A program made the translations under genes and the position numbers. The notes beneath the pieces were generated by a model, which worked only from the letters and a program-made list of their open reading frames with translations, had not been told where the DNA came from and made no database searches. Shown piece by piece: positions 11,657 to 18,084 of a stretch of 64,000 bases of DNA. The number at the start of each line of letters is the position of its first letter. The stretch's first letter is position 1. Origin of the DNA: Deltaproteobacteria bacterium (GTDB taxonomy: Bacteria > Myxococcota_A > UBA796 > SXON01); assembly GCA_947445035.1 (NCBI GenBank), contig CANFCK010000017.1:1-64000 (forward strand). Reading direction: 5' to 3'.

Positions 11657-11796
11657 GGCTGGCCTTGTGCGTGATGGTGGGTTAGACGCGCGTGCCGCGG
11701 CCACGGGGCCGGCTCGACGGCGGATGGGTGCAGGCTGGCCGACACGGGGCCAGAGTGTCACCCCGGTCACTCGGGCGCAACCCCTCCGGAGACGTC

Positions 11797-13542
11797 TTGA
11801 CGCTGCTCGAACTGCTCCTCGCCGGCAACGTCGCCGAGTTCAACAGCCGTCGCGGCCAGCGGGTCACGCTGGACCTCTTCGCGGCAGACCTCGCCAATCT
11901 CGCGCTGGCGGGGATCGATCTTTCTGGGGCAAACCTGGAAAAGGCCGACTTCTCCTCCACCGATCTCACCGGGGCCAACCTCAGCAAGGCTACACTGGTC
12001 GGCGCCGATTTCACTGGCGCAAAGATGGAGCGAGTCGTGGCGATCAAGGCGCGCCTTCGGGAGGCGTACCTGGGCGGGGCCCAGCTCTCCGGCGCGGAGC
12101 TTTCGGGGGCGGACCTCAGCGAAGCCGACCTCAGCGCGGCGCACCTTTCGCGCGCCCGGCTGGCGGGGGCCCGTCTCCGGGAGGTCAGCGCGCGACACGC
12201 CTACTTCGATGGCGCCGACCTTTCGGAGGCCAAGCTTGCCGGCGCGGACCTGCGTGAGGCAGAGCTGGTGGGGGCCAACCTGCGTGAGGCCGACTTGTCC
12301 CGCGCCACGCTCGACGGCGCTACGCTGGAAGATGCGAATCTCACCGGAGCGCGGCTCACGGGCGCCTCGCTCAAGGGCGCGCGGCTTTTCGGGACCAAGC
12401 TCTGCGGCGCCGATTTGAGCGCGGCCGACCTGACCGGCGCGCAGATCGATGAAACCACCGATTTCAGCGGCACGGACATGACAGCCGCGGTGGTCGACGA
12501 CCTGTTGGCCGAGCGCTTGAAGGGCACACCGACGCCCATCGTCCTGGTGGGGCAGCCGGTGGAGCTTCACATGGACGAACCTGCCGTCGCCCAATCGGGG
12601 GGGCAGGTGGCGGTGCTGTGGTTCAACGTGGAAAAGGACGAGGACGAAGTGATCCGGGTGGCCGTTCGTAGCTTCGGTGAGGACGGGTCGGGCGCGGCCG
12701 AGCTGCAAGTGCCCTCGGCGCAGGTGGTGGCCCGTAGCGTGGTGCCGTCGCCGGATGGCTTCCGGGCCGTGCTCCTGGTCGATCGGCCTGGCGGCATGGA
12801 CGTGACGGTCTTCGATGTCGCGCGGGATGGCTCAGTGGGCCCGGGGCGTTCGTCGCGACTCGGATACACCTGCACCACGTTGCCGGTCATCGTTCCCGAT
12901 GGCGATGGGTTCTTGCTCTTCGGCATCGGCCGCGGCGTGCTCTCCGTGCATCGTTGGTCGCCCGAGGGCCTGGCCGAACGCCTGCGGGCACCCGCCAGCA
13001 CCTTCAAGGGCTTCTGCGACCGGATGAGCCCGGTCATCCTCGGGAAGGGCGGCACCGTCACTGCGGTGGACGCCGACGGCATCGGCCGCCTGCTCACGGC
13101 GCCTACAGGCTTCCCCGGCCGGCTTCAGGCGGCGTCGGCGTTGCGGGAAGATCTCATCGCCCTGGCGTGGGTCACCCGCGAGGAAAAAGGGCTCCGCCTG
13201 CAACGCTTGGGGCTCGACACCGAGCCCCTCCGACTCGACGAAAAGTTGCCGGTGGGCTCGGTCGATCTGCGGCCCACTGAGGGTGGTTGGTGGGTGGCGT
13301 GGGTGCGGGAGCCGGTCGCCGACCGGGACGTCACCGTGCCGATGGCGATGTTCCTGCCGGACAGCGGCGCTCCGGGGAAGCCGTTTCCCATCCTCTCGAC
13401 CGCCGAGGTCGAAGATCTCGAAGACCTCCGGTTCGTCATCGGTGAGGGCCCGCCGCGAATGGCCGCCGTCACCTTGGAAGAAACGTTGGTCGTGATTGAG
13501 CTGGCCCCGACCGGAGGCAAGATCGTCGCGCGGGTGGGCTGA
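11797..13542 (+). CDS. Pentapeptide-repeat protein with C-terminal beta-propeller-like region
   Basis: 581 residues. After a short helical cap, residues about 30-230 are tandem pentapeptide repeats of the A(D/N)LXX type (LSGANLEKADFSSTDLTGAN, ...), forming a right-handed quadrilateral beta-helix. The remaining 340 residues are beta-rich with repeated VAVLW/FRAVLLVD strands resembling a propeller. TTG at 11797 is chosen because GGAG lies five bases upstream; a GTG at 11692 with a GTTAGA motif before it is an alternative. It is divergent from the cyclase and coupled to the downstream hydrolase (TGATG). Function unknown; a protein-interaction role is likely. Confidence 0.82.
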   Translation: MTLLELLLAGNVAEFNSRRGQRVTLDLFAADLANLALAGIDLSGANLEKADFSSTDLTGANLSKATLVGADFTGAKMERVVAIKARLREAYLGGAQLSGAELSGADLSEADLSAAHLSRARLAGARLREVSARHAYFDGADLSEAKLAGADLREAELVGANLREADLSRATLDGATLEDANLTGARLTGASLKGARLFGTKLCGADLSAADLTGAQIDETTDFSGTDMTAAVVDDLLAERLKGTPTPIVLVGQPVELHMDEPAVAQSGGQVAVLWFNVEKDEDEVIRVAVRSFGEDGSGAAELQVPSAQVVARSVVPSPDGFRAVLLVDRPGGMDVTVFDVARDGSVGPGRSSRLGYTCTTLPVIVPDGDGFLLFGIGRGVLSVHRWSPEGLAERLRAPASTFKGFCDRMSPVILGKGGTVTAVDADGIGRLLTAPTGFPGRLQAASALREDLIALAWVTREEKGLRLQRLGLDTEPLRLDEKLPVGSVDLRPTEGGWWVAWVREPVADRDVTVPMAMFLPDSGAPGKPFPILSTAEVEDLEDLRFVIGEGPPRMAAVTLEETLVVIELAPTGGKIVARVG

Positions 13543-14361: not shown

Positions 14362-17300
14362 TCACCCGCCCTTGCGCGGCCCCTTCGGCGGGCGGGCGTC
14401 TTCCGTGGCCGGTCCTGCGAGGATGCGGAACACCACGCGGCGGTTCACCTCGCGCGCGTCGGCGGCCGTGCCCGGTTGCAGAGGCTGGGCTTCCCCGTAG
14501 CCTCGTGCTACCAGCCTGTCGGGATCGATGCCCTGGCCGATGAGGTACTTGCGCACCGCCTCCGCCCGCCGCTGTGAGAGCTCCAGGTTGTAGTCCTCCG
14601 CGCCCTGATCGTCGGTGTGCCCCTGCACCTCCACCAGGCGCAGCTCGGTGTGGTTCTCGAGGGTGCCGGCCACGTCATCGAGGATGCGGTAGCTCTCCGC
14701 GGTGATGGTGGCGCTGTCGAGGTCGAAGAATACCTTGTCGCGGATGTCGACCCGGTCCTTGAGCACCACCACGCGACTGACCCCGAGCGTCACCGACACG
14801 CTCTTCTTCTCGTCGCGCGCGATCTGGACGCGCAGGCGCTCGGGCCGGTAGCCCTCGGCCCAGATCGACAGCTCGACCTCGCCGCTTTGGACCGGCTCGG
14901 TGCCGATGCCGTCGCCGCCGGTGGTGAACTTGCGGCCTTCGCCCAAGAGCGTCACCAACGCCGCGATGGGCTGCCCCGCTTCGTTCAGGACCGTCAGGAT
15001 CAGCGTGCCGCCCACTGCCGCCGGCGCCAACTGGAAGGCCTGCTCGTGGCGGGGCGCGTCCGGGACGATCAAGCGTGCATCGGTCGCGACAAAGCGGGGT
15101 GCCCTGACACGAGCTGCGTATTCACCGGGCGGAAGTGACCGTGTGAGTTCGCCGTCAGCGAGCGTCCAGCGGCCGATCTCCGGGCCGCTGGTGAGTTCGA
15201 CGGATGCGCCCGCGAGGCGTCGGCCCTCGCCGTCGGTGACCACCAGATGGGTCGGGACCATGCCCGCGTCGGGGCAGCCGTCGGCGTCGTCTTTGCCGTT
15301 GTGGTCTTCGGGCTGGTCGGGGCAGAGGTCTTGACCGTCGGCGATGCCGTCGCCGTCGCGGTCGGGGCCGTGCGACACCCGCACCGCCTCGGCGCGGGGC
15401 TGCCAGCCGAGCCCGCCCAAAAGTCGGAACTCCGGGGCGCCGATGCCGGTGCCGAGTCCGGTGCCCGCGCCGAGCGAAGCGACAAGGTTGGGTCCGAGCT
15501 TCGCCCGCCCGCCCACGCGCCATTCCATTGGGCTGGCGCCGACGATGTCTTTGGTGGAGAGCGCCGACTCTCCCTCGAACTCGGCCACCGCCGTGAACGT
15601 GGCTCCCAGCGGCACCGACACCCCCGCGCCCCATTCGACGCGGCTTCCCCAGCTCAGCTCGCCGAGCGTGGCTGGAGAGGCGATGTGCATGCCCAGGTTC
15701 GCGGCGCCCACGACGCTCTTGCCAGCGGTGACACTGAGGCCCGCGCCCAGCTCGGGCGAGCCGGAGCCCACGTAGGCTTCCCCGGAGCCGGTGGGCAGGC
15801 CCACATCACCGTAGACGCCCAAGCCGACGAGGCCCGCCTCTCGCCGCACGATCTCGCCCAGCACGCCGACGCGCAGGTCGCCGAGCGCGAAGGTGCTGTC
15901 CATCCGGTCGCCGTCAACGCTGTGCAGCGGCAGATCGAGCGTGAAGGCAACACGACGACTCGCCCAGCTCGCACCAAGATCGACGGTGGCCGCCGAGGCG
16001 AGCAGCACCACGGGCGCCCTGCCGTCGTCATAGGTGTACTGGAGCGGTCGCGACGCATAGTTGACGCCCAAACCCAGACCGAAGCCCGGCGCGTGGGCCG
16101 TGCTGTCGTGGAGCGAGAAGAACGTCGCCGACTCAAACGCCGGCTGGTAGCGCTGGGCGTTGACCGTGGGGTCGGCCGCCGCCGCCGGGGAGGGGAGGGC
16201 CGCCAACGCCGCCAAGGCCGTGACGCCCACGACGGTGGCGCGCCGACGGCGCCGCACGCCCAACAGGACCGCACCGAGCGCGCCGATCGCGGAGGCCGTC
16301 CCGCCGCCGGTGGAGCACGAGCCGCCGGTGTAGTGGCCGCCGCACAGCCCGTCCGCGCAGGTGGTGCCAGAGTCCGTCGGAGCCGTATCGATCGGGTCGG
16401 CGCAGCCGTCTGGGTCGGTCGCGCCGTCGAGGCGGTCGGGAAGCTCGTCGCAGTCCTCGTCGTCCTCGCAGCTCTCGGCGGCGTCGCCGAGGCCGTCGGC
16501 GTCGGTGTCGGGGTCGTCGGGGTTGCTGCCGCAGGCGAGCTCGTCGCCGTTGGTCACCCCGTCGCCGTCGCGGTCGGCGCAGTCCCCGTCGTCGTCATCG
16601 AGGTCGTAGGCGTCGGTGATCTCGTCGCAGTCGGCGTCCCCCTGGGGCTCGTCGCCGTCGAGCACGCCGTTGCCGTCGCTGTCGGGGTCTTCCCAGGTGG
16701 GGAGGCCGTCGCCGTCGGCGTCGTCGCCCGCCTCTTCGGCGCGATCGTCGACCGTCGGAACCCCGTCGTTGTCATCGTCATCGTCGCAGAAGTCGGGGGT
16801 GCCGTCGCCGTCGGTGTCAGCGAGGCCCTCTTCTTCATCGGGGCGGCCGTCCTCGTCGTGGTCGGTCCAGTCCTCGCCCCCGCACGTTCCTTCCAACGAG
16901 TCAGCGATGCCGTCCTCGTCGGCGTCTACGTCGTCGGTGATGTCGTTGGGATCCGTCTCCCACGGGCCGTACTCGCCGTTGCCGTTGCGATCTTCGAGCT
17001 GGTCGAGGAGCGTGCCCGCGTCCGTGTCGTTGGAGTTGGGGTTGGTGGTGGTGTCGGGGTCGGTGTCCGAGACGAAGCAGCCGACGCTCAGGTCGGTCTC
17101 GGGCACAGCCACGTCGATGCCCAGTTCCAACCCATCGGAGAGCGTGTCGCCATCGCTGTCGCAGGCAAGCGGGTCGGTGCCGAAGGTGTTGACCTCGTCT
17201 CCGTCGCCGAGGCCGTCATCGTCACTGTCGACATCGTTCGGGTCGGTGCCGAGCGCCTCTTCGTCAAGGTCGAGTACGCCGTCCCGGTCCCGGTCGATGC

Positions 17301-17964
17301 CCAGGCTGTCGCTCCAGGCGTCGGCCAGGCCGCCCAGGGTGGTGCTGTCGTCGGTACCACACAGGTCGGCATCCGCGCCGATCGGCGTGCCGCTGGCGCC
17401 GGTGACCGCGGCCATCCGGAAGGTGGTCCCACTCGAAAACGAGCCGGGCAGCTCGATGAGATCCACGCTTACGTCGATGAACCAATCCCCGAGGGTGTGC
17501 ATCGAGGTGTCAGCCTCGCTCACCCGGTAGTGCGTCGTGTTCACATCCACGAGGTCCAACGCCGCGGCGTCCACCCCCGGGTCGCCATCGGTGTTCTGGT
17601 ACAGGTAGACTGTCGGCGAGGCCCCCGAAAGCGCCAGCACGTACTCGAAGTTGGTGTCGTCGCCCCCGAGCTCGATCAGAAACGACCAGTCCAGCGGCAA
17701 AAGGAAGCTCCCCTCGGTCAGCCAGGGGTCGTCGTCCACGCGCATCCGCAAGAAGAGTTCGGCGCCGTCTGTGCTCCAGTACACCGCGGCTGCGCTCAGG
17801 GCGGAATCACCCACGCAGTCGATGGCGTCAGCGTTCCCGAGCCCATCGCGGTCGTGATCGTCGACGACGTCAACCACGTCGACCCCGCCAATCTGGACGG
17901 CGGTCCAGTCGGCGTCGGTGGCGGGCCAGGCGAACGCGGGGGAGTTGACGAGCAACAGCAGCAT
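14362..17964 (-). CDS. Fusion: secreted TSP3 protein with MYXO-CTERM-like tail + OmpA-family outer-membrane protein
   Basis: 1200 residues in one open frame. Signal peptide (MLLLLVNSPAFA), a beta domain to about 215, then Asp-rich thrombospondin-type-3 calcium repeats (220-520). Around 545-575 comes a cysteine-containing segment (GGSCSTGGGTASAIG), a hydrophobic stretch and RRRRR, the hallmark of a myxobacterial C-terminal sorting tail. Directly after it is a second hydrophobic signal-like segment ending PSPAAAA, then a beta-barrel-like domain, a short TSP3 linker (GPDRDGDGIADGQDLCPDQP), carboxypeptidase-regulatory-like domains and a C-terminal OmpA peptidoglycan-binding domain (VQGHTDDQG, LSQRRAEAVRKYL). 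This reads as two envelope proteins joined. A GTG near the second signal could allow separate initiation, but no ribosome site is visible. Confidence 0.88.
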   Translation of the reverse strand: MLLLLVNSPAFAWPATDADWTAVQIGGVDVVDVVDDHDRDGLGNADAIDCVGDSALSAAAVYWSTDGAELFLRMRVDDDPWLTEGSFLLPLDWSFLIELGGDDTNFEYVLALSGASPTVYLYQNTDGDPGVDAAALDLVDVNTTHYRVSEADTSMHTLGDWFIDVSVDLIELPGSFSSGTTFRMAAVTGASGTPIGADADLCGTDDSTTLGGLADAWSDSLGIDRDRDGVLDLDEEALGTDPNDVDSDDDGLGDGDEVNTFGTDPLACDSDGDTLSDGLELGIDVAVPETDLSVGCFVSDTDPDTTTNPNSNDTDAGTLLDQLEDRNGNGEYGPWETDPNDITDDVDADEDGIADSLEGTCGGEDWTDHDEDGRPDEEEGLADTDGDGTPDFCDDDDDNDGVPTVDDRAEEAGDDADGDGLPTWEDPDSDGNGVLDGDEPQGDADCDEITDAYDLDDDDGDCADRDGDGVTNGDELACGSNPDDPDTDADGLGDAAESCEDDEDCDELPDRLDGATDPDGCADPIDTAPTDSGTTCADGLCGGHYTGGSCSTGGGTASAIGALGAVLLGVRRRRRATVVGVTALAALAALPSPAAAADPTVNAQRYQPAFESATFFSLHDSTAHAPGFGLGLGVNYASRPLQYTYDDGRAPVVLLASAATVDLGASWASRRVAFTLDLPLHSVDGDRMDSTFALGDLRVGVLGEIVRREAGLVGLGVYGDVGLPTGSGEAYVGSGSPELGAGLSVTAGKSVVGAANLGMHIASPATLGELSWGSRVEWGAGVSVPLGATFTAVAEFEGESALSTKDIVGASPMEWRVGGRAKLGPNLVASLGAGTGLGTGIGAPEFRLLGGLGWQPRAEAVRVSHGPDRDGDGIADGQDLCPDQPEDHNGKDDADGCPDAGMVPTHLVVTDGEGRRLAGASVELTSGPEIGRWTLADGELTRSLPPGEYAARVRAPRFVATDARLIVPDAPRHEQAFQLAPAAVGGTLILTVLNEAGQPIAALVTLLGEGRKFTTGGDGIGTEPVQSGEVELSIWAEGYRPERLRVQIARDEKKSVSVTLGVSRVVVLKDRVDIRDKVFFDLDSATITAESYRILDDVAGTLENHTELRLVEVQGHTDDQGAEDYNLELSQRRAEAVRKYLIGQGIDPDRLVARGYGEAQPLQPGTAADAREVNRRVVFRILAGPATEDARPPKGPRKGG
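16240..16320 (-). other. Internal MYXO-CTERM-like sorting segment
   Basis: This encodes about residues 549-575 of the fusion protein: a conserved-type cysteine in a Gly/Ser/Thr cluster, a roughly 15-residue hydrophobic helix and five arginines. Such segments normally end a protein and are processed by myxosortase-type membrane proteases. Here translation continues into a second signal sequence. Confidence 0.65.
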
Positions 17965-17974
17965 GATCGTACCC

Positions 17975-17991
17975 TTGACGTGTCAAGTGTA
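17975..17991 (-). promoter_or_regulatory. Promoter-proximal palindrome TTGACACGTCAA before the OmpA-fusion gene
   Basis: On the minus strand a -10-like TACACT (17986-17991) runs into the palindrome TTGACACGTCAA (17975-17986), ten bases before the ATG at 17964. The same arrangement, ending in ACRCGTCAAG, occurs before the glucosaminidase gene (33667) and the FtsB-like gene (63377). Confidence 0.45.
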
Positions 17992-18084
17992 CCGCTTCGG
18001 GGGAGGCTTGTCCAGCACCAGCGAGGCTCCGGCTGACTGCGGTCGTCCTCCCCCCGCGCCCACTCGCGGATACACCCCCCCGCG

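Follow-up and report, generated by a model that had tools for sequence, protein, structure and literature searches.

A single reading frame of 1200 codons in the window (the whole 64,000-nucleotide stretch of DNA that was analysed) joins a putative adhesin half to an internal MYXO-CTERM sorting tail, a second signal peptide and a barrel/OmpA half, and the order-wide conservation of this layout suggests a precursor that is cut into two partner proteins. With a probability of about three in four, the precursor would be cut twice to yield a 1:1 pair of adhesin and wall-anchor partner. The first-pass annotation had read the gene as one joint frame with a sorting tail and another signal peptide inside it, and as one message for two envelope proteins if the sorting protease cuts; the frame is indeed open over its whole length, and the reading as a message encoding two proteins is supported. 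The features, in the order of translation, are as follows.

14362 to 17964, minus strand: single open reading frame of 1200 codons, from the adhesin half through the internal tail and second signal peptide to the barrel/OmpA half
17986 to 18014, minus strand: promoter-like site TGGACA-17-TACACT directly upstream of the start, a pattern match only
17929 to 17964, minus strand: short N-terminal signal peptide MLLLLVNSPAFA, followed by WP after the predicted cut (from sequence; orthologues of the genus are alike)
17290 to 17928, minus strand: conserved N-terminal beta-rich domain, residues 13-225 (alignment; model pLDDT 85.8)
16405 to 17289, minus strand: acidic calcium-type TSP3 repeat stalk, residues ~226-520 (PF18884 below cut-off; repeats at the DNA level)
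16240 to 16326, minus strand: internal MYXO-CTERM tail, residues 547-575 (TIGR03901; invariant G, C and R in 57 relatives)
16174 to 16239, minus strand: second, internal signal peptide ATVVGVTALAALAALPSPAAAA, residues 576-597, with A-x-A at its end
15403 to 16086, minus strand: outer-membrane barrel of ~12 strands, FapF/COG4313-like, residues 627-854 (model and Foldseek)
15268 to 15363, minus strand: TSP3-like linker DRDGDGIADGQDLCPDQPEDHNGKDDADGCPD (sequence; alignment)
14785 to 15243, minus strand: two carboxypeptidase-regulatory-like (Ig-like) domains, residues 908-969 and 992-1060 (PF13620, PF13715; the second below cut-off)
14440 to 14730, minus strand: OmpA peptidoglycan-binding domain, residues 1079-1175 (PF00691, 88.7 bits)

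The N-terminal signal peptide is 12 residues long and lacks Lys and Arg; it is similar in the genus relatives, and longer in family members outside the genus. The front half, which would act as an adhesin, begins with a domain for which a fold search gave no clear solved relative, the one match being weak (2ivf_C, TM 0.32). Pattern matching detected no promoter-like site within the gene. A 929-codon open frame lies antisense to it (15247-18036, plus strand), apparently owing to the GC richness of the TSP3 repeats and not as a gene, and the neighbour at 11692-13542 (plus strand) encodes a pentapeptide-repeat-like protein of 616 codons with AxLxxADLSGAxL repeats.

The internal tail is composed of GGSC(550)S, a hydrophobic helix evident from hydropathy and RRRRR at 571-575, in agreement with the Cys in a Gly/Ser cluster, the helix and the five Arg originally described. 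Its TIGR03901 match is real but marginal, with 22.0 bits in the whole-genome frame scan (cut-off 20), and 16.6 and 20.1 bits when the queries were cut down to the front half and to a 90-residue fragment, respectively. MYXO-CTERM tails are usually C-terminal, whereas 625 residues follow this one; among the best 30 tail matches of the genome, 28 end within 0-23 residues of a stop codon, and the two that do not are the window gene and one further locus (L077). Alignment of 57 joins revealed the Gly three before the Cys (G28), the Cys (C31) and one Arg (R53) to be invariant, and the second Arg (R54) and the A-x-A alanines (A75, A77) to be at least 90% conserved; matches to TIGR03901 (E up to 1) were obtained for 42 of these joins. 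The conservation in 57 relatives, together with the closeness of 28 of the best 30 tails to a stop codon, marks the internal tail as more than a chance resemblance.

A search for a myxosortase-type protease, proposed along with the original claim, identified a protein of the window genome (G000:C14) with 117 bits to Mrt_core (cut-off 100), which scores below the subtype cut-offs of MrtP (156 of 250) and MrtX (119 of 180). GspD and signal peptidase I genes are also encoded in this genome. What counts against a double cut is that the tail barely exceeds the TIGR03901 cut-off and is of the GGSCS and not the GCGC type; cleavage of TraA required its conserved cysteines (PMC11980579). Signal peptidase I might then cut alone, leaving the front half with its helix hairpin in the inner membrane and the marginal tail as no substrate of a myxosortase; the single Cys of the motif and the absence of a passing subtype model among the myxosortase searches agree with such a course. 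However, the Cys and the Gly three before it do not vary among the 57 relatives, and ordinary C-terminal tails of the window genome (GGACSS and GGCSTA, in L083 and L074) have the same form, so that cleavage by signal peptidase I alone is unlikely.

The second signal peptide claimed to stand right after the tail is present at residues 576-597 and ends in A-x-A. Between the Arg cluster and the cut site lie 17-36 residues, in 15 different lengths and always in whole codons, over the 58 joins of a table in which the A-x-A positions were chosen by eye (those of the alignment column statistics were not). In 24 of the 58 fused relatives, the stretch that begins at the Arg cluster and ends 14 residues short of the cut site contains no ATG, GTG or TTG in frame. 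Separate initiation of the second protein is therefore not the general route, and internal initiation was rejected as such.

The join is retained in one frame by genus relatives of 55-86% identity, and likewise by relatives of the family and the order. The order-wide clade holds 40 fused sequences in a single frame and one split sequence (L040); on the question raised in the first-pass annotation, whether the orthologues are one gene or two adjacent genes, the answer is one gene. Beyond the order, another eight family-level groups of the phylum account for 18 more fused sequences, whose front halves differ greatly and whose frames run to ~1000-3100 codons. The sample amounts to at least 58 fused members in 14 family-level groups. 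A profile search from a closer alignment matched only seven named MAG records, which come from uncultured bacteria and carry the labels Deltaproteobacteria or Proteobacteria; the presence of MYXO-CTERM tails and a myxosortase would fit an assignment to Myxococcota. A relative of 53% identity with the same MYXO-CTERM/OmpA join (L126, CAMBIK010000099.1) is titled as a Klebsiella pneumoniae MAG, and this title is almost certainly wrong.

Past the other internal MYXO-CTERM tail of the genome (L077, G000:C51:5373-8168), the frame continues with a lipoprotein-like signal (LLLGC) and then a half that resembles glycosidases. In the relatives of L077 the two halves are mostly separate frames, which lie on different contigs in some genomes, and its join is probably recent or accidental, as judged from these sequences. 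Since the fusion in L077 is not conserved, it provides a contrast to the window gene.

Sequencing error, a lost stop codon or a frameshift as the origin of the fused frame was ruled out by the dozens of single-frame relatives in independent assemblies and by the varied lengths of their joins. The window gene has a GTG one codon ahead of RRRRR, and translation from it would yield MRRRRRATVVG...AAAA, a good signal peptide; there are also two-gene relatives, which would suit a gene that makes two proteins by internal initiation or one whose stop codon or frame has been lost by artefact. Either course is very improbable, considering the 24 start-less joins, the frame kept through so many join lengths and assemblies, and the contrast with L077, although partial initiation at the GTG may occur in the window species.

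L040 is the only true split relative within the order-wide clade, and two-gene pairs make up a clade of their own. In split relatives the front protein stops a few codons past the Arg cluster, and the next protein starts with an ordinary signal peptide. Because the second protein of the two-gene relatives starts in this manner at the very place of the join, the internal signal peptide is taken, from sequence comparison, to descend from a real signal peptide or to have given rise to one. A tree built from 69 barrels, 58 of fused and 11 of split forms, requires at least three changes of state, and does not indicate which state came first. The window genome itself carries a two-gene pair at C1:113.9-117.5 kb, ~9 kb downstream of ftsZ, in which stop and start overlap by four bases as ATGA. 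At this locus (L207/L039, G000:C1:112.3-117.5 kb) a pair of MYXO-CTERM genes is followed by a gene for an OmpA barrel, the last two of the three overlapping, while ftsZ and a frame resembling lpxC lie upstream; the place recalls that of MXAN_5598 beside ftsA/ftsZ.

The back half had been described as an OmpA-type barrel with a peptidoglycan-binding domain. The OmpA domain stands, with an E value of 2e-23 and 82.9-88.7 bits to PF00691 (cut-off 27.2); the barrel is of a different type, as the model and Foldseek indicate ~12 strands of the FapF/COG4313 kind in place of eight, the structural match being 5o68 (E 2e-10, TMt 0.66-0.70). In the model, ~30 residues separate the A-x-A site from the first barrel strand. 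Fully stretched, ~30 residues span ~10 nm, which is too short for the periplasm if the helix is still in the inner membrane. This geometry bears on the alternative offered with the original claim, in which the protein stays whole as a double-anchored fusion that links outer surface and peptidoglycan, and the two hydrophobic stretches form an uncut hairpin. One frame does give one polypeptide, and a lasting fusion would set the 1:1 ratio of a TraA/TraB-like pair. Nevertheless, the conserved A-x-A lies directly past the second hydrophobic stretch, the two-gene relatives display the halves as separate chains, and ~30 residues are too few to cross the periplasm; an uncut fusion is thus disfavoured and appears quite improbable.

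In the preferred double-cut reading, the N-terminal signal peptide would start the export of the adhesin with its TSP3 stalk, until the MYXO-CTERM helix halts in the inner membrane with the Arg cluster in the cytoplasm. The Arg cluster would double as the positively charged front of the second signal peptide and restart export, whereupon signal peptidase I would cut after A-x-A and release the barrel/OmpA half, predicted to insert in the outer membrane and to grip the peptidoglycan. Cleavage at the Cys tail would fall to a myxosortase, and the adhesin, presumably lipidated, may reach the cell surface via type II secretion. The two halves could then act as a 1:1 pair of adhesin and wall anchor, like TraA and TraB. 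The extension of this scheme to a phylum-wide class is somewhat favoured; in such a class one Arg cluster would end the sorting tail and begin the next signal peptide, and the cuts by signal peptidase I and myxosortase would give an obligate 1:1 adhesin/barrel pair.

The cytochrome b/c1 precursor encoded by fbcH of Bradyrhizobium is likewise the product of one gene, and becomes two proteins when signal peptidase cuts at an internal signal sequence. It differs from the window gene in having no sorting tail and in giving respiratory proteins. Literature searches on fbcH as a polyprotein and on midcut-by-XrtH retrieved no paper. HVO_0405 of Haloferax volcanii is a fusion of two once independent genes and is cut at its central tail by an archaeosortase, as seen on Western blot (PMC7157517). 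It resembles the window gene as a gene fusion with a central tripartite sorting tail; it differs in being archaeal, in its PGF motif and archaeosortase, and in being without an outer membrane or a barrel half.

In M. xanthus the genes traA and traB share four bases (PMC3325183), and their products form a 1:1 complex (PMC12045341). The likeness to the window gene lies in a MYXO-CTERM surface protein adjacent to a barrel-TSP3-OmpA partner, though TraA/TraB are two genes and the window has one. Pfam gave no match in the window protein to the PA14-like domain and Cys-rich repeats of the TraA type, and the TraB model NF033763 scored 110 bits on the back half against a cut-off of 700.

Guo, Haft and Wall 2025 (PMC11980579) noted that internal MYXO-CTERM motifs occur in frames in rare cases. 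Among these is MXAN_5598 of Myxococcus xanthus, with an adhesin, an internal tail, a barrel and an OmpA domain, for which a fusion of two genes was suggested; the authors proposed that its front half is processed at the internal tail and anchored at the surface (PMC11980579). The original statement that no sorting tails are known except at C-termini is therefore wrong, as MXAN_5598 (PMC11980579) and HVO_0405 (PMC7157517) have internal ones, and the internal-tail fusion is a kind already known. Compared by architecture, MXAN_5598 and the window gene each combine, within a single frame, an adhesin-like front, an internal MYXO-CTERM tail, a barrel and an OmpA domain. MXAN_5598 lies in the ftsA/ftsZ cluster, whereas the window gene is on C17 and ftsZ at C1:104535; no MXAN_5598-like gene was found beside ftsZ in nine genomes of family f19. 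The second signal peptide is a feature of the window gene which the parts of PMC11980579 on MXAN_5598 do not discuss. MXAN_5598 is described there as rare and atypical, whereas the form in the window is conserved throughout an order. What is new is the breadth and depth of this conservation, a conserved second signal peptide that has its Arg cluster in common with the tail, the start-less joins and the history of fused and split forms. The internal signal peptide with its shared Arg cluster is a testable second feature, and the natural fused and split versions allow one to ask why a cell would fix the ratio of adhesin to wall anchor, and whether the pairs act like TraA/TraB. The oddity reported as MXAN_5598 thereby becomes a conserved architecture, represented by at least 58 members in 14 family-level groups.
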